Source: Glandiceps talaboti (taxonomy: Eukaryota > Hemichordata > Enteropneusta > Spengelidae). Taken from it: a DNA stretch of 64,000 nucleotides. The position numbers and the translations under genes were made by a program. The stretch is from NCBI RefSeq assembly GCF_964340395.1, contig NC_135551.1, positions 29,097,880-29,161,879 of the forward strand, given 5' to 3'. Under the pieces are notes generated by a model. That model was not told where the DNA came from. It searched no databases and saw only the letters and a list, made by a program, of their open reading frames with translations. Below, one piece after another: positions 4,936 to 61,000 of the stretch. Position 1 is the stretch's first letter; each line of letters begins with the position of its first letter.

Positions 4936-7900
4936 AAACACTCAGTCATGGAGAATTAGATGACAGGGCGCTTGAAGCTCTCAAAGAACTCAATGAAGAG
5001 GCAGCACTATCAGTTTTGAAACAGTTTGCAGGTAAGAATACAAACATTATACAGTGGTAGTCAATTTCTCCTCAGTCTAGTGCATGTAGTTGTGTTATTT
5101 CACTACTTTATGCCAGCGATGGTTGTCACCAGTAAGTAATGAAACCAGATATTGTTTTGAAAACACATTTAGCCAATACAGGTCATGTTGACCTTGCACA
5201 GTCGAACATGTTACTACTGATTACTTGGGAATTATATTCTATTGGTCTGTACCACTTAGCTGATCAAAACTGATATTATTGCATATTGATAAATTGTAAT
5301 AGTCACTTCACCTGAATGTCTCTTGATTTCTTTCTGTGAGCCTGGGACTGTATGTACATTTTGAGATATTTAGATATTTTTTCAGATATTGGTCACAAGA
5401 ATTGACCCCAATCTAGTTATTTGCAAACTATGATAGACACAAATTCAAACTATTATTGTTGCATTTTGTCAAAGTACCTTGATGTGTCCTGCAATCAAGA
5501 TAGTGTAAACACTGGAAGTCACGTAAACATGGCCAATGTACTAAGTTAGAAATAACGTTGAATGTGGGTACCACTTGAGAAAAAGTCTATTAGAAATGCC
5601 ACCCTACCCTAGCAACAAGACCACATCCATAGCAACAGCCAAATGATGGAATATCGCAAATATAACATCAGGGATTCATAGATAAGTGAAAGAACATTCA
5701 AAAAATGTATGTTATGTCTAGCAACATAACAACAGACAAATGATAGTGTATATTTCAAAGATAACAACAGGGTAGGATAGGCAACTGGATAATCATTCAG
5801 CAAATGAACACCTATACCTAGCATGGATCAACATGTTGGTAAACATTTTTAAAAACTGTACAGTTGTTCTAAAACTCAATTGGTGCGACTTTTATTGATT
5901 TTGTATTGCTCGTCATTCTCGATATTGGTTTGGTAAAACTCTGACCAGTTGACTGCTATGACAAGTCACTCACAATCTTCAAATTGTCTTTCAGAGAGTG
6001 ATTTGTCACATGTTAACAACAAGAGTGCCTTCCTTTGTGGAGTGATGAAAACATATAGACAAAGGACGAAACTCAAGCAAGCTGCAGCAGCTGATGCAAG
6101 GCCCGGCCCTGATGAAGCTAAACTAAAGGTATTGCAGTTATTTGAAGTCTAGAAATCATTATCGTCCTTACGTTAGTTTGCAGTTGCCTTTTTTTTTACT
6201 GAAAAAAGTGTGAAGTTTTCATATCCATTTGTATTTGGTCAGTCAGATTACATAGTGTGCCATCTTTTTTTCTTTGTTTGAAATGCAATATGTTACTTTC
6301 ACTGGTATTACTGTATACTGTGGTGTTATTATATGTACCTATATTAAATTTTTAGAATTGGAAATCAAATAGAGGGGTGGATTATAATTTGGATGGCACC
6401 ACCCCACTAGAAACTTGTGAGTAGCATGCTTTCTTTTGTTATTAGGAAATTTTGGACAGAACGGGTTATTCCCTTGACGTAACCACAGGACAGAGAAAAT
6501 ACGGCGGACCACCACCAGATTGGGATGGACAACCACCATCTGGAGAAGCAGAGGTGAGGAAAGGAAACCAAAGTGACAGAGTAAATAAATTAGCCTTTTC
6601 AGTAAATTGAGGAGATAATTTTGCTTTTATAATGGCAGAGGATGCATTTCTTATGGGTTTGATAAGACTCGTGAAGGATTTTGCAGATAGATATATTCGT
6701 TGAAGGTGAAATTTGCATATATGCTGCGAAAATAATGACAGCGTTCTAGTTGTGAGCAAGGTCATTATTTGTTAAAATGTCACCTTCCAGGTATATATCT
6801 CCAAGCAGAATTCCAAGCAGGTCTTATCAAACCCAATTATAATATGCTGAATTTGGAATATACAGAAATAAACAGTGCTGCGTCTTTCAATCTAAGCCCA
6901 TGCAGGGTAATGCATGTGAACACATCAGTTAGAATATTTTATCATAGCATGTGTGTCGTGACTTATTTTGTTTACAATTGAATTCAAATCGTCATATTAA
7001 TGATTGAAATATTAAACTATATTCTATATCAATAATTCAGAAAAAAAATGAGTATTTTTATTCCAAACCCATAAATGATATAGTTGCTCAACATTCTACC
7101 CAAAGGCAAATGGTTTATTCCGTATCTTGAAGTGTAGATTATTCAAGTTCAGGGATGTATCATGCAGTGCAAATGATGTAGTTCAAGGATGAAGTTTTGT
7201 ATCTAGAGACGCCATTCAAATTTTAAATTTAAAACTCAGTTACAAAGACAATAACAAAGATGACTTCATGCATGTTAGAGAGTTGCAATGCTACAATGTG
7301 ACTAATTTGTTTCATTTTCTTTACTATTGTTTCTTCAGCAAGTTTTTGTTGGCAAAATACCAAGAGATATGTTTGAAGATGAGATTGTCCCATTGTTTGA
7401 AAAGTGTGGCAAACTTTGGGATCTTAGGCTTATGATGGATCCAATGTCAGGTTTAAACCGTGGATATGCATTCGTCACTTACTGTACAAGAGAAGGAGCA
7501 CAAGAAGCTGTCAAACAGGTATGGTATCAATTTCTCATCACCTCTCACTTTGTTTACATTAGTCGAAAGATTTTGTGTGTTTGCTAATATTGTGTGTCGC
7601 AAAAAATGTCTTGGTCAATGATGCATCAGTTTTGGTTAGAGGGCACTTTTTTTTTTTTTTGATCCCAAAACTAGTAACTTAACCTTTTTATTGACATCTG
7701 TCTCATTTAGCTTGACCACCACGAAATCAGGAAAGGAAAACATTTGGGTGTGTGTATATCGGTAGCCAATCACAGGCTGTTTGTCGGATCCATTCCAAAG
7801 ACAAAGTCAAAGGAAGAGATTATGGACGAATTCAACAAACATGTTGGTAAGTGTTGCTGGTATTGTTAATTTGTTTAAAGGAAGGTTTCTTTGATAAAGA

Positions 7901-10211
7901 TTGTATTACCTGACAAATGACAAAAAGATCCAGTCTTCCAATGCTGGTGTTTCAGTGCTTGTCTTTGCTCTGTTGTGAGGCGAGAGAAACTTGTTGAAAA
8001 ATGGGTTTTCCTGTGTTCCTTAGGGATGTCTGCTCTAGTCGTAACCTAAAAGTTTGTTTGTACAAGGAAGAACTTGATTGGATCTGTCACCTTGACTCAC
8101 TGCCTGGTTTAGCATTAAAAAGTTATGTTTTCTCATCTCTAATGATTATTGAATTACCTTTTTTTCTACAGGTGGTCTGATCGATGTTATTATTTACCAT
8201 ATGCCAGAGGATAGAAAGAAAAACAGAGGTTTTGCATTCTTACATTTTGATTCACACAAGGCAGCTTCTCTTGCAAGGAGGCGGTTAATGAGTGGTAGAA
8301 TTGAAGTATGGGGTAACTCAAATGTCACAGTTGACTGGGCAGATCCACAAGAAGAACCCGATGAGGAGACCATGTCTAAGGTATAGTACTGTTTATTACA
8401 TGGTAATGTCCTCTCTGAATTCAAAGAATTGACAAATTACGTATTTGAACCCACTGGGTCCCACATGGTAATTTGTTATCCATAAAAATCACAGTTATAA
8501 AACAGAACGGTTCATGTGAGAATCACCAACAATGGTCACCATGGAACATTATGTGCATTTTTATTCTCAAATTTTACATGGCAAGGTATCAGAATAAATT
8601 TATCAGAAATGGATATTTGAAGGTGTTACATCTTCAAAGTGCAAGATTTGCACATGTGTGAAGCAGGAACAGACCAGTGTGAAATATTAGTGTACAGTTG
8701 CACTTCAAGAATAACCAGAATATCTGGATCAAACTAGTCCAAACCTTTTAGGTTGAGAAAGAAGAGCGTTGCTAGTGAAATTTGAAGTAAGGTTTCTGCA
8801 TTGGTCAGCAGTTTGTTTGAACTAATGAATTGTTTCCCCCTTGTTCTGCAGGTCAAGGTACTGTATGTGAGGAACCTGACACCCACTGTCTCTGAAGAGA
8901 AACTTAAACCAATGTTTGAAGCCTTCGGTCCAGTTGAGAGAATTAAGAAACTCAAAGACTACTGCTTTGTACATTTTGAAGAGCGAGATCATGCTGTTAA
9001 AGCTCTGGAGGAAATGAACGGAAAAGATGTTGATGGAGCCGCACTTGAGATTTCACTAGCCAAACCACCCTCTGAAAACAAGAAAAAGAAAGAAAGACAG
9101 CAAACTAGGCAAATGGGACGACCAAGGTGAGTCTGCTATAAATGCTTCTAACCTTATTGTGCCTGCATTGTTACAATGTGAGACCTTTCGCAAAGTTCAT
9201 TTTGATTGAATGTAAAATGATAGAAGAAATGACATTGCCTGTAGTGTTAACGATTGCCGATAGAGGAAGTACAGTATGTATGCGTTCCAAAAATTTGTTT
9301 GCTGGCTAAGATTATTTTCCCAGTTTTTGAGATTGAATGATTGCACTTGATGGCTAGTGACAAATTTTTCATTAACAGAAGGTATAACCTGTTGGCTCCT
9401 TTCCTTATGTTTGTAATTTGGTGGGCAGTGTGTGGATGGATGTGATTACCTTGTACGTCTGTGTGATTACCATTACAAGGAGATGGTTGTGTTGTGATGC
9501 CCAAGGCATAAAGGCTAACATAAATTTGTGTATGCTTTCAGGTGGGAAGATAATTACATGCCACCAGGCCCTAGAGGCAGAGGTGGAATGGGACCAATGC
9601 GTGGGGGCCGTGGTGGATATGATCGCGGTGGATATGACCGTGATTATTATGGATATGGAGGTGGCTATGATGATTATTATGGCTATGATGACTACCGTTC
9701 CTCCTATGAAGACCCCTACTATGACAACTACTATGGAGGTGGTGGTGGTGGTTATGGCGACAGACAAGATTATGGTGGTTATGGCGGCGGTTATGGTCGT
9801 GAAGCCAGGGGCCGTGGTGGTTTCCGTGGCAGTGGTCGTGGTGGTGCTCAGCAATCCCAGCGTGGTCGTAGTGGTTATCCAATGCGTGGTGGTGCTGGTG
9901 GTCAAGGAAGGGGAGGACGTGGTGGTGGTGGCGGATTCAGAGGTGGCCAGCAGGGAGGCAGAGGACGTGGTCGAGGAGCTCAAGGTGGTGGACGTGGTCG
10001 TGGTGGTGGCTTTGCTGGAAAGCGCAAGGCTGACTCACAAAATGCAGGTGACTCGAAACGCCGCTTTACCCAAAATCAAAACAGCCAGAATTGGGGAGCC
10101 CAACCAATAGCACAACAGCCTTTGGATCAGGATTACGGCAGTGGTTACGGGTATGGCTCTGGTGGTGACTCTCAATGGTATCAGGATTCCTTTAGCCAGC
10201 CTTGGAAGTAA
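4936..10211 (+). CDS. SYNCRIP: SYNCRIP/HNRNPR-family RNA-binding protein (3' eight coding exons)
   Basis: Exons seen: 4936-5031, 5995-6128, 6446-6553, 7339-7518, 7711-7846, 8172-8380, 8852-9126, 9542-10211 (stop TAA 10209-10211). All have AG acceptors and GT donors and the phases join without a break, giving about 601 residues. Order: N-terminal acidic/NURR region ([19 protein letters not shown], then the exon with [17 protein letters not shown]); a [19 protein letters not shown] linker; RRM1 ([14 protein letters not shown]); RRM2 ([14 protein letters not shown]); RRM3 (LYVRNL, DYCFVHF); and a Gly/Arg/Tyr-rich RGG tail ending in QDSFSQPWK. Family members are nuclear and cytoplasmic hnRNPs acting in splicing, mRNA transport, stability and translation. 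Human paralogues are about 620-635 residues, so roughly the first 70-90 residues are missing here; the first exon seen starts in mid-codon, so a 5' exon must exist. The tail matches both SYNCRIP (hnRNP Q) and HNRNPR, so this is probably the pre-duplication orthologue; the symbol is the family name. The donor after 6128 (GTATTG) is weak. Confidence 0.95.
6655..6834. mobile_element. Fold-back (MITE-like) element
   Basis: GGGTTTGATAAGAC (6655-6668) is perfectly inverted at 6821-6834, and inner parts also pair (GAAGGTGA near 6702, TCACCTTC near 6780). The element is about 180 bp and sits in a SYNCRIP intron. No clear target-site duplication was found. Confidence 0.5.
7339..7518 (+). CDS. SYNCRIP: SYNCRIP exon encoding RRM1
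   Basis: A phase-0 exon of exactly 60 codons carries nearly all of RRM1: RNP2 (VFVGKI), the [20 protein letters not shown] helix-strand segment and RNP1 (RGYAFVTY). The next exon (7711-7846) holds the end of RRM1 and the RNP2 of RRM2. RRM1 and RRM2 are therefore split across introns, as is usual in this family. Confidence 0.93.
9542..10211 (+). CDS. SYNCRIP: SYNCRIP terminal exon, RGG/YG-rich tail
   Basis: This 670-bp exon encodes the low-complexity C-terminus: an acidic Tyr/Gly stretch (DDYYGYDDY), many RGG/GRGG boxes, a GKRKAD basic nuclear-localisation-like segment, then the family-typical end with Asn/Gln and [11 protein letters not shown] boxes in hnRNP Q/R are arginine-methylated and bind RNA. 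The GGT/GGC richness of this exon also produces long open antisense frames, which are artefacts. The TAA stop is at 10209-10211. Confidence 0.95.
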
Positions 10212-25089: not shown

Positions 25090-34113
<9,024 letters not shown>

Positions 34114-40000: not shown

Positions 40001-43000
40001 CCATTGTAACCAAAATGATAGAATCTGTACTGTTGCCAACTATATTCAGTGTACAGTCTTCAGACCCGTACTTGTCTGTGGTAACAGAAGTAAACATGAT
40101 AAAATGTGCAGTGACAGTGTAAAATAAACCATTCCATTGATTACTGTTTTTACATTGTAGTGACTAGAGATAGTGACCACAAGACAATGAACTTGATATA
40201 GGCTTTAAAGTGTTATAGTTTGACAACAATCAACATGACATAATTCTGTATCTAGTTCATGTTACCATGACTACTAACCTGTACTTTTGTTGGCAGCAGT
40301 AAAAGATCAAATCTACCTAAGTTCACCAACCATTGTAATGTTGTTCCATTCTATAGTTATGGAGGGATGTACTGGAAACTGTCAATTTTAGCAGATCATC
40401 CCCTCTCTGTCTGGATGTACCAAGCAAATAGAATTTTCTTTGTTTTATCTGTTTAATCATGTTAATTTTCTTATTCTTTACAGCTAAAAAGAAGTTTATA
40501 AAGATATTACTGCATTTTGCAATATACATGTATTACCCTATGAGGTTACCTGATTATTGAACAACCCCCAACCCCCCCCCCCCCCCCCCCCAACCCCAGC
40601 TGTTGCAAATGGAAATATTGTGGAGTGCATGGTGTGTACATGTCTGGGTATAAAATGAAGGTAGTTGACCTTAAAACACAGGGTGTATACTAGGAGTAAG
40701 TCACTGTATCTAAGTGAAACTGATAGTGGCAAGCTTTCATATCAGCATAGCATTCTAGTTCTATGGTATGCAATTTTTATGATTGTAGACAGTCTGTAGA
40801 GTAGTTGTGAGAAAGGAGTGGGTCATCAAAGCAAGATAAAATATATTAAGGTATAAAAATAATTTAGATTAAGGCCTTCAAGATATATATATATAAATAG
40901 ATGTATATAGTTTACTATTCCTGGAGTTGAACTAGAGGTGTTGTCTAGGAGACATTCTACATGTATCACTTACTTGAAAACATAATAAAATTCCAAGAGG
41001 AATTACTTAAATGTTACAAAAACTCAAATGAAATTAAACTAAGAGTGTTTGTCATGTGGCTGGTAGGCAAGCTTGGCAAGAGTATTGTACATTTTCCATG
41101 CTAATGGTTATAAAAATACACAGTAACAAGTGTATAGAAAATATGCAAATGAGAATGGTGATGTCACTATCTAGGGTCATCAACTAGATAACTGTTCCCA
41201 TGGAAACAGGACTGATCCTGACATGTCACACCACATGGATGAATTATGAACTTCACAATGGTGATGACATAGTATAGTTTATACCAGCAATAGGTGGAGG
41301 TTTACTCAGCAATTATTCATTCCATATTTATTTACACAGATCAAATACATATATAGTACTGCTACCAGTGTTAATTATAAACTAACTGATGTCAATAAAT
41401 TACTAATATTGTAATCTGTGGTAGTAAAAGGAATCTGTGATTTTGTATTTGTGGTAAATTTTCTATACTGAAATTACAAACATATCAAGTAGTAAATGTA
41501 CTATTTTGAGTTAAACCATAATAAGTAAACTTACATACCACACGCATGCCATTTTTTAAACAAAATTCTGATTCAAGATACATAAATTTTGTAAAAGTTT
41601 ATTTTTCTTATTTGATAGAGTATTGGTTGTTGGTGTGTAACGCTTAGATTATGTATTTATGATATAAATTACAACAGATAACAGCTGTTCAAAGGGAAAA
41701 TATAAATATTAGTAATAATCATAACCTTGGTACTTAGTTAAAATAGCTTGCATAACTTATACAATTAGATCTATTGTGCAATTGATAATTAATGTATGTC
41801 TTTTTGCTGGAAGACATAATTTTCTGAAATTATGGTGTCATATTTTGTCAATGGACATTACACATAGCACAGGAACGTAGCTCAATATACTGCTAGCTCA
41901 ACTTCAGATGACTGACATTGTCAAGCAAGATAACAAGGTCCCTGGGCTGTATTTCATACTAGTGTTACATGCTATAGAATAAAATTAGATACAAAATGGA
42001 TGTTTTTTTTATTACATTCCTTGACCGATAATGTTCACTCTGTGGAAGCCACTCTTGTACAGGATTGGTTGAGAAGTAGTCGACTTTTATCCATTGTGGA
42101 TTGTGCTGGTGAACAGGCGTAAGTAAACATAGATTCATTTGGAACCAGAATGTAAATTTGACCAGTTTATTATGTAGAACTTCGAAGATCTAAAAGATCT
42201 AAAAGATGACCCTAGAAACTAAAGTGTCATCACACTGTCTTTAGCCAAATATCCATAAAAATATCCATAATTATGTTCAAAGAATAATTTCCAATTTCTT
42301 TTCTTCAGATTATTTATTTACACCTGCAGTAAAACACCAGTGATATGTGCTGATGACATCACATTGGAGACAGCTCTACCAATAAAAGGAGACTTTGTTT
42401 GCAATGTTGGTGAGTATGACCTTACAATCTGACCTCTCAGGTCAAAGTTCAAACAAAGAATCAAATCCCAGTAGTATTAAGTTGTCAGTTAGGTGACATG
42501 ACGTGATGATTTGAAGGATTTACTGGTAACTCAACTATTTGGATTAATATAAAAATGAGAATCCTGCTATTATTGACACAATTGATGGACAATGTGGGTC
42601 ACAAAGTGAAATATATCATTTATGTAAATTAGCTACCATCCTTTGACTCTACATTGCAAAGATAGTAGCTAATTTGCACAATAATTTACATATCAGTATA
42701 TTAATTTGCATATTTGCATAAAGTCCATTTAGTAATCTTTTGCCATTTATTGAGATACTAACAAGAACTTCTTTGTTATTTGTACACAAAAACTACAAAT
42801 TGGGAAAAACAGAACTACTAATAAATTGTAACTATAAAATATCATAGGTACCCCTGGTTTATCACTGTGGACATTCAAGATACACTGTATATTGAATATC
42901 ATCCTTGTAAATAGATAGTATGTTCCCCAGGGAGTTGAGGAAAACTAAAGGGCCGTTGTGCCGTTCTGATCCGAGCCAGGGGTAATAATTGTAAAGCGCT

Positions 43001-46000
43001 TTGAGCACGGCGTGGGAAAGCGCTATATAAGAACCCAACATTATTATTATTAAATGAGTTTATATTCAAGAGTAAAAAGTGTATGAACTCGGCTGATGCC
43101 ACATTAACAATTCTCTTCGAGAATATGGAGAATCTGCTGTGAGTATAATTCAGCGTTATTTGAAGACACAATACCTGTGTTGTAGCCAAGACTCCAGAAA
43201 ATCTTGTCATGGAAACCAACCACATAATGACCAAAAGCATTCAATACACCAGCAGTAGTACGGTAACAGGAATCAACACCTATCAGCTGATCTTTCACAA
43301 CTTCCTGTCTTCCTAAATTACTCATAAGAAACGGTGATCTCTCAAAGCATTGGTTTCTATCTAAACATTCCGCTGTGATTTCTACATCACTATCATTGGT
43401 ACCTTTCACCATGGAAGGTGACTTCTGTAGCTCTAAAGGTATTTTGCTTGAAATACGGCTGTGTACTTCTTCATGTATGTTGCAGGCTAGTTGCCAAAAA
43501 TCTTGTGTTAGTAATGAGTTCGGCATTATTGATGTGCTGAGAGGAAGGTAGGATGGGTAATTCCCCAAGTTGTTTGTATTTGTATCTTCAAAATATCTTC
43601 TGAGAGACACCATTACCGTACAGTGTAAGACCTCCCTCGTGGTCACTTTACCATCTCGTATCATAGATATCATTGCCAATATTGCTGCAGCTGTCAGAAC
43701 ACCATTTAATCCAATACCATATTCCTTTGCTTTTTGTACCAATCGTGCTGTTAGATTTTTTTGAATAATGAAAGGATGGATTCGATCCTGTGCTTGTATG
43801 GAGCTGTCTGTCAAAGTTTCAGGTGGAAATCGCTCTAGAAAATGTGTTGTTGCTTCTTCTACATGTATGTCTTGGACTGCAGAAGGAACTACACTCATTG
43901 CATCCTTGTTTTGTTCTGAAATTAACTCTTTACATGATGGAGGGAATTGCTGACTTTTAATCACACTATGGTTTTCTCCCATGGCTATCAGGTTAAGGTT
44001 TTTGACCACTTGTTGGCACAGTTGCCATAGAGATATACCATCTAGAATTGAGTGATGAGATGTGAAAACAAAGCCTGTCCTGTAAACTCTAGTTTCACAG
44101 TCTTCGGTGTCCAAATCAGACCAGTTTCCTTGTAATAACCTACACCTCCATAATGGTCCGAGAGCCGAATCAACAGGTATTCCCAACTCACGTGAAATCA
44201 CAGCTCCCCAATCATCCACACTCTCAGACACCATGTGTAAATCTACAGTACCTTCATTGGGCATATCTTGGAAATATCTCTTGAACCCAACACCATGTGG
44301 CACTTTAGTAATTCGAGCTCTCAAAGAAGGGTGAAGTTGTCTCACCATATCCAGTGCTTTCTGCATATGTTTGACTGTTAGTGCAATCTTACACTTTAGT
44401 AAGATAGCTATGGAGGGACATCCTAAACCCCATCCATGGATTTTATCTAGGTATGCTTCGTAGTCATCCAGCCTACGATGGTACCCTTCTTCAGCCATTA
44501 CGCTGACAGTGACACCCTGTACTTAGGGTGCAATGTACAAAGTACAGTTACCAGTCTGTAGTGTTGCAGTACGTGACTCATATTTTCTGACTTGATACAC
44601 ATTTTGCAAGTGACCTTGTCATAGTTATATATGCAGTATGTTAACTTATGTGATCCTGTGTTATTGGATCCCTTGTGCGTATTATTGACCAAAGTATGTC
44701 AATATTATACAATTGCTCTAGAAAGTGTGTAGTTACTTCTTCAATGTGATGGACTGCAGAAGGAACTACACTAATAAGTCAGTTTGAACAGATAATTATA
44801 AGTACATGTACTAGAAGTAAGTATTTTGTGTCAGTCAAAGACACTCTTCTGTTATGACACTCAAAATTCCATGACTAATCATAATCAGTGTGAAAAGATG
44901 ATTTGTGTGGAGTTTGAAGACTTGGTGATGTTACTCAGACTTACCTCAGATAGCCATGACAACCACAAGTACAATGCAAGTAACTCACACTGTCACTATT
45001 TAGCACATAATTGACAACATTCTACTAAATACTGTATAGATATACAATGTATGGGTATATCATTTATGGGGGTTATATCAGTGTCAACTGAATGGTTGCC
45101 ATATTTGCCATGTAAACCCTCTATGGTCTACAGTACTAGTTGAGATGCTATCTATGGCATCTAAGAGGGGAAGAGAGATTTTGAAAATGGGGGGGGGGGG
45201 ATCTTGAGATTGGGGGGGGAAGAGAGATCTTGAGATTGAGGGGAAGAGAAATGTTGAGATTGAGGGGAAGAGAAATCTTGGGGGGAAGAGAGATCTTGAG
45301 ATTGAGGGGAAGAGAGATCTTGAGATGGGGGGGGGGGAGATCTTGAGATTGAGGGGAAGAGAGATCTTAAGATTGAGGGGAAGAGAGATCTTGAGATTTG
45401 ATGATGGCATCTAGAATACTATAATTACTGGGTCACGCATATCATCTACATGTATCGTTGTATGTTGTTTTCAGAATCAGAATCTTCAATGGTATTGCTC
45501 GTTCTTTTACCAAATATTACAGGGTCACACTTGTCATCTCTGTTGTTTTCAGAATCAGAATCTTCAATGGTATTACTCGTTCTTTTACCAAATATTACAG
45601 GGTCACACTTGTCATCTCTGTTGTTTTCAGAATCAGAATCTTCAATGGTATTACTCGTTCTTTTACCAAATATTACAGGGTCACACTTGTCATCTCTGTT
45701 GTTTTCAGAATCAGAATCTTCAATGGCATTACCAGGTGCCGATGTACCGGTCCGAATCACAACCAATGAAACAGACGTTGTATTTGAATTGCCGTTTGGA
45801 TCCAAAGCAACTATATTTTTAAATGAACTCAACAAGGCAATGGGCAGTAAGTCACATCATTACATTTATATATTACAAAACACTAGATGACAAGTATCAT
45901 CTTCCACGTGTGATTATGTTGGATATCCATAGATTCTATGAGTGAATAATTGTAAGAATAATAATCGCATGAATTATTTAACCAGATCAAACATCAGGAC

Positions 46001-55000: not shown

Positions 55001-58000
55001 AACTCAGTTGACATATGGATTAGTGTCATCACAATATTTGGATGATAATTATTTTGTGTGGAATTCAATTTATGTAACTGTCTGTACTGAGATGTATATG
55101 ATAATTTATCAGTGGAGTTTTTGTGGACTGAATACCGTTGGAAGTCCTGACACAATTGATAAGGTTTGAAATATGTTTACTTTTAAACTATAATGAAAAT
55201 TTTATTAGTTACAGTGTACAATATTTCCTGATTGACAGATATTGAAAGACATGTACCGGGTACTGTTTCAATGATTATACCATGCACAAGCCAGGTTCAA
55301 CAAACAATATGGAATATATACTCTGGTGATTCTATGTCACAACAACGTGTGTCTATGTCATTGGTTCTGCTGTGTGTGTAATATAAGTCAAAATGCTCAA
55401 AATTGCAATTATTTTCTGCAATTTTTTTCATATTACTGGCACTGGTATAATTATATTATTGCCCAATATTTTTCTTCATTCAACCAGAAAAAAACTTGTG
55501 TAGACCAATATCATTTATCAGTCTAGGAACCACAGTGTCACTTTAACTAGGCCAAAATTATGAATTGGAAAGAATGTGGTCTAGTTGTATTTGTCAGATT
55601 TTACATATACATGTACATTGATTCAGGATTAGAGTTCAGTCCCCCACCTTTGTCCAAAAATTCACTTTGCTGTATCTTCATTTTTGTTCTACTACAGAAT
55701 ACAAAATAAATTTTTGTATTTGTTTAATTTTGTGTTACAAGAATAATCAGCATTGTTGTGTTCAGAGTACAAATAGACTTCAATAACTTGTGTGTGTAGT
55801 TTACCATCACCCATGGTTACCATCACCCATGGTTACCATCACCCATGGTTACCAATGTTAGGGTTAGTCATTAAATTTAGTGTATTATCTGTACCATAGA
55901 TGTTTTGGTAATTATACCTCTCTCATTCATTCATTCATTCATTCATTCATTCATTCATTCATTCATTCATTCATTCATTCATTCATTCATCCATTCATTC
56001 ATTCATTCATTCATTCATTCATCCATCCATTTATTCATACCTTCACTTACAAATCCTACATGTAGACATCCTTGCTTGCCAGTTACAATTCCTAAAGCTG
56101 TTACAAACTAAGGCTCAGATTCAGATTGTGAATCTGTCATAGGTCAAGTCCCTGAATAAAATATGCAGACAGAAATAGTTGGTTTGACTATCATAATACA
56201 TTTTACCATGTTTGCCTGGTCAACTCCATTGTTGCCAACTGTGTCTGTTCGAACTAACTATATAAAGTTTTTTTTTTTTTTGATGATTGGTCATACTTCT
56301 GATCGAAATTTGAAGAAAATGGCAAAACTGGAAATGATAAAACTGACTTGTTAACTGATAATGTTTATTTTCCACAGGAGTACTGATGATTTGCCGTCTG
56401 AATCTACTGGAAGTGGTACAGTTAGTGATGTTATGAAGGGTATGGGTGTAACTACTCCTAGACCTGTTGGTGTCAGAGATGGTATCGTAAGACTACACAT
56501 GTCAAAACGAGACAGTGAATTTACAGTTATGAAGCCATTTAGGTGAGTGGGAATTTGTAGTTATGAAGCCCTTTAGGTGAGAGAGAATTTGTAGTTATGA
56601 AGCCCTGTAGGTGAGAGAGAATTTGTAGGTTTGAAGCCATTTAGGTGTGTGAGAATTTGTAGTTATGAAGCCCTTTAGGTGAGAGAGAATTTGTAGGTAT
56701 GAAGCCCTGTAGGTGAGTGAGAATTTGTAGGTTTGAAGCCCTTTAGGTGAGAGAGAATTTGTAGTTATGAAGCCCTTTAGGTATGTGAGAATTTGTAGTT
56801 ATGAAGCCCTTTAGTATTTTAAAACCATATAGATTCTAAAAAGACACAAAAAATGCATTAATTCATTTAATGATGAAAATTTTTATATCTGTATTAAAAA
56901 AACAATTTCCGTATTTTCTCCAGGTTATTTGTAGGAACATGGAATGTGAATGGACAGGTACCAACTGTACACATAGGTGCTTGGCTTTCATCAGATCCAG
57001 AACCACCAGATATCTATGCCGTTGGATTCCAGGAATTAGATTTGAGCAAAGAAGCATTCCTGTTCAACGACTCACCAAGGGAAGAAGAATGGTACAAACG
57101 AGTTGCAGAAGGAATACACCGGAAAGCCAAATACAAAAAGGTAAAGTTATTTTATAGTCAGACTAGTTACCAAGACAACTTATGGCAGTTGAATCTATGC
57201 ACAATTTTATTCTATATTCTTTCAGTGATATAAATGTGACTTTGTTACTAATTCTGTCTCTGTAGGGTACATCATAACAAAAATTGTAAACCATCAGAAC
57301 ATATGTGTCTATGTCATCAGTTTTGTTGTTCTACAGTATGAAAATATGTGTTCATGTCATCAGTTCTGCTGTTCTACATCATGACAATATGTGTACATGT
57401 CATCAGTTTTGTCCTACAGCTTGGTTTATGTGTACATGTCATGTTTTGATGTTCTGCACCATTGCACTATGTGTCGATGTCATAATTTCTGTCCTCTTAC
57501 AGTATTACAATATGTGTATATGTCATTAGTTATGGTGGTCTATGTAATGACAATTTGTGTACACATCATGATCTCTATTCTACATCATGACAATATGTGT
57601 ACATGTCATCAGTTCTGTTGTTTTACATCATGACAATATGTGTACGTGTCATCAGCTCTGTTGTTCTACATCATAACAATATGTGTACATGTCATCAGCT
57701 CTGTTGTTTTACATCATGACAATATGTGTACGTGTCATCAGCTCTGTTGTTCTACATCATAACAATATGTGTACGTGTCATCAGCTCTGTTGTTTTACAT
57801 CATAACAATATGTGTACATGTCATCAGCTCTGTTGTTCTACATCATGACAATATGTGTACATGTCATCAGCTCTGTTGTTTTATATCATGACAATATGTG
57901 TATATGTCATCAGCTCTTGTTTTACATCATGACAATATGTGTACGCGTCATCAGCTCTGTTGTTCTACATCATGACAATATGTGTACATGTCATCAGTTC

Positions 58001-61000
58001 AGTTGTTAAACCAGTTGTACTGTTGATATTTTACCAGGTAAAATTGATACGATTAGTTGGCATGATGTTGATAGTGTTTGCCAAGGAAGAACACATGGAA
58101 TATATTACTGAAGTGGCTGCTGAAACAGTAGGAACAGGTATCATGGGTAAAATGGTAAGTTGGACTTTAATCCTATTTATATCACTGGATAATGATGTAA
58201 TGTAGTATTCCAACTAGCTCCCAGAATATCTCAATGGAATAATATCTTATCCCATTGCTATCACTGGAATGTCACAGTGGAGCAATGTTGTGGTGTCAGC
58301 AAACATTTTAATATCAATAATATTGATATGGTTATTACTTTTCCAGGCCTCCAGCCCATATACAACAATAGAAAAGTACAAACACAAAAAAGTATCAAAA
58401 TCACACAAATAAGACTGATTTGTCATAGATTCATTATTGGTGGTACTCCTGTAAACTGCTACCTCAACATGACGTTGTTTTTAAAGGAATGCAAACAACA
58501 ACAAATCTTTCAGTCTACCTGTTTTGCTCAACTTATAGTTTTTGAGTACAAAGAAAAACCACGCTGATAGAGAGAGGGGATTAATATGATTTTATAAACC
58601 AAGTTCATGTTAAAAACGATTTTAATTATTTTTGTTTTGTACTCTGTAGGGTAACAAAGGAGGTGTTGGAATAAGACTTGTATTTCACAATACATCATTT
58701 ATCTTTGTCAACTCTCATCTCGCTGCACACGTTGAAGAATTTGAAAGAAGAAACCAAGATTATCATGATATCTGTTCTAGGATGTTGTTCAAAGACTTTG
58801 GTTCTCCATTACATATAACCCAGCATGAGTAAGTACTTGTACATGCACATTTAATATTCCTGAGTTGCCTTGCATTGTGTTTCCTTGTACCATGGAGGTG
58901 TCTCTCCTTATACCTCCATGCTAGTACATTTATTTATGACACCACAGGGTAAAGGACAAATAATCGTGATTTTCCAGATTTCTAATATTATTTTCTGTAT
59001 ATTTCAAATAAAGTTTTAAATACTGTTTCCTCTCGTTAATGTGTTAATTTGGGCAAATGGTGAGTTTGTTCTAGCAAGCTACAAATTAATGCAAAGCTGA
59101 TAAACTCAGATAAGACTTTGATATCAGGTAGGAAATAGAAAAAAAACAGTGAGAGGAAACAGCATTTAAAACTTTATTTGAAATATACAGAAAATAATAT
59201 TAGAAATCCGGAAAATCGCGAAAAAAATTGATTATTTGTCCTTTACCCTGTGATGACACTGATAATCCAGACTTCGGTTTACTAAGATAGGATTAAGACA
59301 CAAACTAAATCTACTGTTCTTCAATGAGGAAGATTACACAAGTGGGTGATCGCGGTTTCTCTGTTGTGCAAGCCTAATTACACTGTGATCAACATAGCAT
59401 AAATATTGGCAGTCCCAAAACAGCACTGTAAGTTAATGAAACTCTTAATATACAAATATTCAGAGATGCCTCCCAACTGAGATTATAATTAAACCAATGT
59501 CTGTTCAATAGCTTATCGTTGTTGTATCAACATGTTTCAACAATAGTTTTAGTTTGTGTCTATCTTAGAAAACTGAAGGCTTGACTACCAGGGTAATAAT
59601 TTCTACACATGACTTGAGTTGGCATTTGTTCCAAATTCATGAATATGCAGTGTTCAGCCATTTCATGTTTATGAAGCTAGCTCCATGAGACAATGCATGA
59701 CCACTAATAAGGGCTGCCAGTAAACAATGGATGGCCAATAAGTTTCATTTTGTATTTCTCAGCAATCGTTCGTAATGTAAGTGACGTAAAATGACAAAAT
59801 GACTTTCTGTAACCCAAAGTTTACAAAAATTCCTTTATTTCATGGAGTAGCATTCCCCTTTACTGGTGTATTAATCTAGGTGGTGTCTAACATTTCATTC
59901 TTTGTTTATTGTTTTTCAGTGTTGTATTTTGGCTGGGTGATCTTAATTACAGAATTAGTGACATTCCAGCAGACGAAGTCAAACAACTTATTACAAAGAA
60001 TGCCTTCGATAAACTCTATGAATTTGACCAAGTAAGATTTTATTTCTTGGTAATTAATGAGTATGTTTTTCTTTGTAAAGTAACAAGAAGGATAAACCAA
60101 GTAACTTTCTATACTATAGAACAGCTTTCTTACAACTACAAACTACTGACTATTTTCACTTTGTACAATAATCAGGCAGAACTCAATGCATGTTGTATTT
60201 CCCATGGTGGTGTGTTTTCTAATTTTGTATGTGAGTGCAAAACGTCCCTGATGCTACTTTTCTCTTGAATTAAAACAAATGAGTGATCTTATGTAAAAAG
60301 TAAAATGTAATTGTACAAGTCTTTTATTTTTGATGAATATAGCAAGTTTAACTTGATTTTGTATTTTTGCCATTAAAAATCAAGAAATCCTATTTACCGA
60401 CTTATTTCATATCTTTTTGTCTTATTTTTCCAGTTGAATAAACAAATGAGAATACACAAGGTGTTCACTAATTTCACTGAGGGTAAAATCACTTTTGTGC
60501 CAACCTATAAATATGACCCTGGTACAGATAGCTGGGACACAAGGTAAGGTCAGAGGTCAAAATGTATTTGAAATATACCACTGCATCACTCTATTAGAAA
60601 GACTTGTTGTCTTCTCAAGTTAATAAGGGATTTGACGTCTTGTTGCAGATTTCACAAGATATGCAAATATGCCTAGCAACAACGGTTGTCAAACGTGATC
60701 GCAGTCAAGCTTTCGCCTTGGCCATGTGTGATGATATTGAGAACAATAGTGTTGCTAAGTGTTTGACTCTTTCAGTTTGACCACCCTCACGTGGTTGCTA
60801 TGGACGAATTTGCTCATGCGGGATCTCATGAGATCTGCCGAGAGATGAAAAAACGACATTGTTGTACAGGTTTTATAGATATTTTACAACTTTTTTCCTG
60901 TTAATTATCAAGCAATGACAAATTTTTATTGCTTTTTCTATTTGTACTCTTAAACTGTTGTAGTATGTCATATATGGTTATTAAACACTCACCATCTTGC

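Follow-up and report, generated by a model that had tools for sequence, protein, structure and literature searches.

The window, the whole stretch of 64,000 nucleotides analysed here, presents a gene of the INPP5B/OCRL inositol 5-phosphatase type, as judged by homology. The INPP5B_PH domain (PF16776) matches exon 4 alone and also exons 3 and 4 joined (66.9 bits for the joined form). The best PDB match is 2kig, the solved PH domain of INPP5B. A tblastn search with human INPP5B (an approximate query) gave matches that are collinear over 36954 to 63735. Taken singly, three are weak (E 0.10 to 0.30), and the final match extends into an intron. The INPP5B_PH domain exons and the 5-phosphatase exons are ordered on one strand. 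These three lines of homology agree with an earlier note on this DNA, which had named a gene of the INPP5B type. We counted 57 junctions in the window from 30 exon cores, two of which (49630 and 53390) have no family match.

An SF3A3-like gene (25090-34110, by tblastn) lies directly upstream of INPP5B on the same strand, and we take the two genes to be neighbours in human too. An RRM gene at 7306-10211 is hnRNP R/Q-like by eye. Within INPP5B intron 3, an intronless reading frame of 472 residues is nested on the minus strand (43107-44522). It matches AATase (PF07247, E 1.2e-8) and, more weakly, condensation domains.

The exons and the tandem array treated below are these:

42309..42409, forward strand: INPP5B exon 3 (PH domain), with donor GTGAGT next to it, phase 1
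45424..45474, forward strand: upstream intron flank with imperfect homology to the 78-bp unit (local alignment), ending in the first acceptor copy
45463..45732, forward strand: 78-bp minisatellite (acceptor mirage) of 3.5 copies, spanning the intron 3/exon 4 boundary
45709..45846, forward strand: INPP5B exon 4, conserved extent, with donor GTAAGT at 45847

The 78-bp array at the intron 3/exon 4 boundary

TRF reported the 78-bp minisatellite in the window with 98% matches and a score of 526. At all starts sampled between 45466 and 45574, a 78-mer agrees with its neighbour in 77 or all 78 bases. Copies 2 and 3 show no difference. Copies 1 and 2 differ by one base (TTG/TTA, both leucine), which is too small a change for a test. 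A DNA search of one assembly, in which very common words were skipped, found a single locus in the 590-Mb genome that matches the array. The earlier note had described a 78-bp unit that copies the exon 4 acceptor together with the first codons. The TRF result and the repeated TTTTCAG/AATCAG motif (the slash marks the splice boundary) confirm it. With the boundary placed by homology and splice signals, the unit spans exon and intron, and the splice signal is duplicated. On that placement, the array is a mirage, the name used for such boundary minisatellites in the relevant passages of an amphioxus globin paper (PMC3087553).

The unit consists of an exon part ending GG(C/T)ATTAC joined to an intron part starting ATTAC(T/A)GGGTCAC, with 17 nt between. 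For the source of this 17-nt stretch between the two ATTAC ends, the rest of the window offers no 12-mer match and one 11-mer. The flank at 45424-45474 aligns to the unit with a local score of 32, and 0 of 2000 shuffles scored as high. With the last 12 shared bases removed, 1 of 5000 shuffles reaches the score. The two-ended join and the imperfectly homologous flank fit a tandem duplication with filler, then expansion. We infer that the array arose by a local duplication across the acceptor, with some filler, and expanded afterwards.

The fit to the PH domain points to the oldest acceptor. When exon 3 is joined to 45708, 78 residues fall on 78 positions (47-124) of the PF16776 profile. Because this match has no net gap, 45708 (the 3'-most acceptor) is probably ancestral; the upstream copies are probably newcomers. 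Against the 66.9 bits of this form, one extra unit gives 60.0 and three extra units give 58.1, while the TTACAG site gives 61.3 and the second CAG 65.5. The lower score of the longer forms reflects a gap penalty. It bears on ancestry and not on present use. Likewise, the form without the insert matches 2kig in a single stretch that has one-residue gaps, and the form with it matches in two pieces. From the match ranges, the insertion point is at about positions 79/80 of the 145-position profile. It means that the insert falls inside the PH domain, not at its edge, where the earlier note had placed it.

Acceptor sites and reading frame

Judged by sequence, each copy is a possible acceptor of its own. 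The candidate sites are:

45473..45474, forward strand: acceptor AG copy 1, which would add 78 residues; score 5.3
45551..45552, forward strand: acceptor AG copy 2, which would add 52 residues; score 4.8
45629..45630, forward strand: acceptor AG copy 3, which would add 26 residues; score 4.8
45707..45708, forward strand: acceptor AG copy 4, the probable ancestral and working site from the PH profile fit; score 4.8
45677..45678, with copies at 45521-45522 and 45599-45600, forward strand: second acceptor-strength AG of the unit, TTACAG/GG; score 6.2 each

The TTTTCAG/AATCAG copies end at 45474, 45552, 45630 and 45708. The four acceptors of the earlier note are present as sites of acceptor strength, and it missed the three TTACAG/GG sites (45522, 45600 and 45678), so the total is seven. 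Scores come from a weight matrix of the 26 SF3A3 and INPP5B acceptors in the window (leave-one-out median 3.4, range -2.8 to 11.0). The seven sites reach 4.8-6.2, and the last acceptor (45708) is not favoured. Each unit also has a CAG-AAT-CAG tandem acceptor, where the second CAG of CAGAATCAG scores 0.4-0.5. Two other AGs score 1.6 (45735) and -5.4 (45414).

The branch points are guesses. A relaxed, branch-point-like TCAC occurs 25 nt upstream of each of copies 2 to 4, with no AG between, and 39 nt upstream of copy 1. None of the four TTTTCAG copies has a strict yTnAy motif in a clear position.

The 13 AGs located between 45413 and 45735 all share a single phase, and the end of exon 3 has the phase of the acceptor copies. 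The frame is open from every copy, which upholds the earlier claim of in-frame copies with 26 residues each. The frame is shared because the 78-bp unit has no stops, and it would make leaky use of an upstream acceptor harmless to the downstream frame. However, the array is free of stops in all three forward frames, so an open frame does not by itself argue for coding. With random 78-mers of the window taken as tandem, a given frame is open in 22% and all three in 1.5%. With shuffles of the unit, these values are 40% and 1.9%. Three open frames are uncommon in either control. A period divisible by three with an open frame thus has a chance of about 7% per array (0.22 x 1/3), and three AGs would fall in one phase by chance in 12%.

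Two of the ten mirages seen in the genome are in frame and stop-free, compared with about 0.7 expected by chance. They are the 78-bp acceptor array of INPP5B and a 141-bp myosin donor mirage (L030). Mirages L027, L039 and L044 have a period divisible by three but present stops, and the remaining periods (34, 58, 31, 50 and 86 bp) are not divisible by three. We rejected the rule that a mirage period is a multiple of three, which holds for 5 of 10 (78, 34, 48, 105, 141, 60, 58, 31, 50 and 86 bp; P 0.21). Frame conservation was also rejected as evidence for coding, given three open forward frames and modest odds. The shared frame is compatible with chance, although it may have a meaning. It is probably a coincidence.

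Use of the copied acceptors

We give a probability of about three in four to an acceptor mirage formed by tandem duplication across intron 3/exon 4, in which the last acceptor is mainly used and the array is near-neutral. More precisely, a segment of about 78 bp that crosses this boundary of the INPP5B-type gene would have been duplicated in tandem to give the minisatellite. Exon 3 would be spliced mainly to the 3'-most acceptor, which adjoins the intact exon. The extra copies would then be removed with the intron, leaving a near-neutral array. Each of copies 2 to 4 comes with a possible acceptor module, made up of an AG, a pyrimidine-rich tract and a TCAC at 25 nt upstream, so copies might be gained or lost without harm. 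The best reading of the array is an ordinary member of the known mirage class. Against this explanation, with a branch point located upstream of the array, choice of the first AG would point to 45474.

The amphioxus cases are the closest relatives of this arrangement. In the passages on mirages of PMC3087553, the 3' end of the intron and the 5' part of exon 2 are repeated in BflGb6, with haplotypes of 6 and 3 units. The Adh3 mirage shows somatic instability there (PMC3087553). In the same passages, Adh3 data and globin RT-PCR suggest that regular splicing is undisturbed, and cryptic sites in mirages could yet yield alternative transcripts (PMC3087553). One such passage speaks of donor sites, whereas its cited source has 3' splice site in the title. 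The corresponding part of the PGBD5 paper describes repeats of 60 and 108 bp located at splice sites, and refers to troponin C (PMC3902484). Like the INPP5B array, the amphioxus mirages as described there (Adh3, BflGb6, BflGb9 and troponin C, with which the authors compare PGBD5) have units that span the boundary and copy splice signals. According to these passages both boundaries can be copied, and the BflGb6 layout is that of the INPP5B array. In contrast, the gene is a different one, and the haplotype and somatic instability and the normal splicing are amphioxus reports. By analogy with BflGb6 as the precedent, copy-number polymorphism of the INPP5B array is plausible. A GFP-family search of this genome gave 0 matches at E<=0.001, a kind of result that does not show absence and that speaks only weakly against a lancelet host.

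In human CBS, the 844_845ins68 allele duplicates the intron 7/exon 8 junction, and the relevant part of PMC2630376 reports that the distal site is strongly favoured. PMC1334203, in its corresponding part, describes mostly wild-type mRNA with traces of another transcript. Both this allele (c.844_845ins68, as outlined in that part of PMC2630376) and the INPP5B array are tandem duplications of an intron-end/exon-start junction. The allele differs in being one 68-bp duplication, in being polymorphic, and in a length that is not a multiple of three. Boundary tandem repeats in human duplicated genes can change the gene structure and activate cryptic splice sites, in the passages of PMC2812944 concerned. 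Those repeats belong to recent paralogues and are tied to novel introns, whereas INPP5B exon 4 still fits a conserved domain. The intronic minisatellites of C. elegans, as the relevant part of PMC4039745 presents them, are only loosely related.

An in-frame series of acceptors, close to the interpretation of the earlier note, is the first alternative. Several copies would be used, producing INPP5B with 0, 26, 52 or 78 extra residues in a PH loop, with a length that differs between individuals. All 13 AGs in one phase with no stop, the seven sites of acceptor strength and the relaxed branch-point-like motif for each of copies 2 to 4 agree with it. The boundary repeats of PMC2812944, often accompanied by alternative transcripts in the passages concerned, lean the same way. 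Nevertheless, two in-frame and open mirages of ten, where about 0.7 are expected by chance, and a 12% chance for three AGs in one phase weigh against it. So do the amphioxus mirages and human CBS 844_845ins68, which the passages cited above report as splicing normally, and the last acceptor alone already gives a PH domain of normal length. Such a set of proteins is possible, its positive support being the open frame and the equal site scores, and we consider it unlikely. The observation in the earlier note is right and slightly understated, while its interpretation is partly supported. A stronger form would make the array a working length dial, with 26n extra residues in the PH-domain loop and a mix set by germline or somatic copy number. 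On a wider scale, if a few per cent of junctions have mirages, splice-site copy number would be common standing variation in the genome. We regard this form as distinctly unlikely.

It is quite improbable that the most upstream acceptor is the sole one used, so that the repeat would be constitutively coding and the protein would gain 78 residues. Copy 1 scores slightly above the other TTTTCAG copies (5.3 vs 4.8) and, with an upstream branch point, would be the first AG of acceptor strength. However, this use would enlarge by 78 residues a domain that fits PF16776 without net gap in their absence, six further internal sites of acceptor strength would go ignored, and the CBS precedent, in the part of its report on site choice, favours the distal site. 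An assembly artefact, with copies multiplied by the assembler, would account for the identity of copies 2 and 3. It is very improbable: one substitution and its flank set copy 1 apart, the last copy diverges in the exon, the array lies within a 32 Mb contig, and other loci of the genome have similar arrays.

Mirages elsewhere in the genome

INPP5B has a second mirage, on the donor side:

56517..56814, forward strand: 34-bp unit in 8.8 copies, spanning the donor of the exon that ends at 56542

It contains eight TAG/GT donors at a spacing of 34 bp, the first at 56543 and the last at 56781. An in-frame TGA follows the first donor, so only this donor gives a continuous protein. The human CBS 31-bp VNTR is a minisatellite at the exon 13/intron 13 boundary, across the splice donor, and is comparable to this donor array. 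Unlike the INPP5B acceptor array, that VNTR is on the donor side, is human and has more copies. A further array at 57301-58007 (43 bp, 16.7 copies) ends about 30 bp before the next INPP5B acceptor (58037), and the acceptor is not copied.

We estimated how often mirages occur at exon edges, taken as the ends of profile matches and not as mapped junctions. The sample covers 62 of 78 listed myosin matches and 40 of 57 listed TCP1 matches, the lists holding the best-scored candidates only. Mirages were confirmed by eye solely among edges flagged by TRF (score 50 or more). Seven of 124 myosin edges (L027, L030, L039, L044, L048, L058 and L074) and one of 80 TCP1 edges (L118) have a mirage. Both sets together give 8/204 (95% CI 1.7-7.6%), a figure that leaves out the two window mirages, one of which was the starting observation. 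At L043, L053, L097 and L116, arrays adjoin the junction with no copying by eye, and these candidates were rejected.

Coverage by tandem arrays (period 20 or more) differs between exon and intron. In the myosin set, it is 0.7% deep in the exon, 2.7% at 20-60 bp inside and 5.1% in the last 20 bp, then 7.3% in the first 20 bp of intron and 8.1-8.8% beyond. The TCP1 set shows 1.0%, 1.3% and 1.3% in the same exon zones, with 3.2% in the first 20 bp of intron and 3.8-5.8% beyond. Overall, the intron beside the sampled exons is about 4-9% covered. Random genome coverage is 8.3% (17 loci of 10 kb), with 7673 bases coming from a single locus, L004.

At intron density, 14.3 edges are expected compared with the 8 observed (Poisson P(<=8) 0.053). 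The junction rate is about 0.6 of the intron-density rate, with a wide interval, and exon interiors are far lower. This deficit, together with the TCP1 coverage in the last 20 bp of exon (1.3%) compared with intron (3.8-5.8%), means that junctions may be partly protected. Copying of splice sites seems widely tolerated. Selection probably acts against it to some degree, most of all in the TCP1 set, and near-neutrality of splice-site arrays is tentative.

The INPP5B array alone is one more mirage, and the useful part is the rate of 8/204 edges. None of the literature matches listed was a genome-wide survey of mirages. If the rate holds genome-wide, mirages would be natural replicates for the choice of the spliceosome among near-identical tandem splice sites. 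They would also allow a test of the route to new introns that the globin paper (PMC3087553) puts forward. Should the host lie outside the lancelets, mirages would not be confined to the group in which they were named.

The first 7000 bases of a small contig (L141 on C46, 1-7000) have NPVNTGQNLS-like repeats in several frames, apparently satellite DNA, and no tRNA genes in these 7 kb. The myosin donor mirage L030 (sense 418-701, 141 bp x 2), in frame and open, is a second candidate for an alternative in-frame product.
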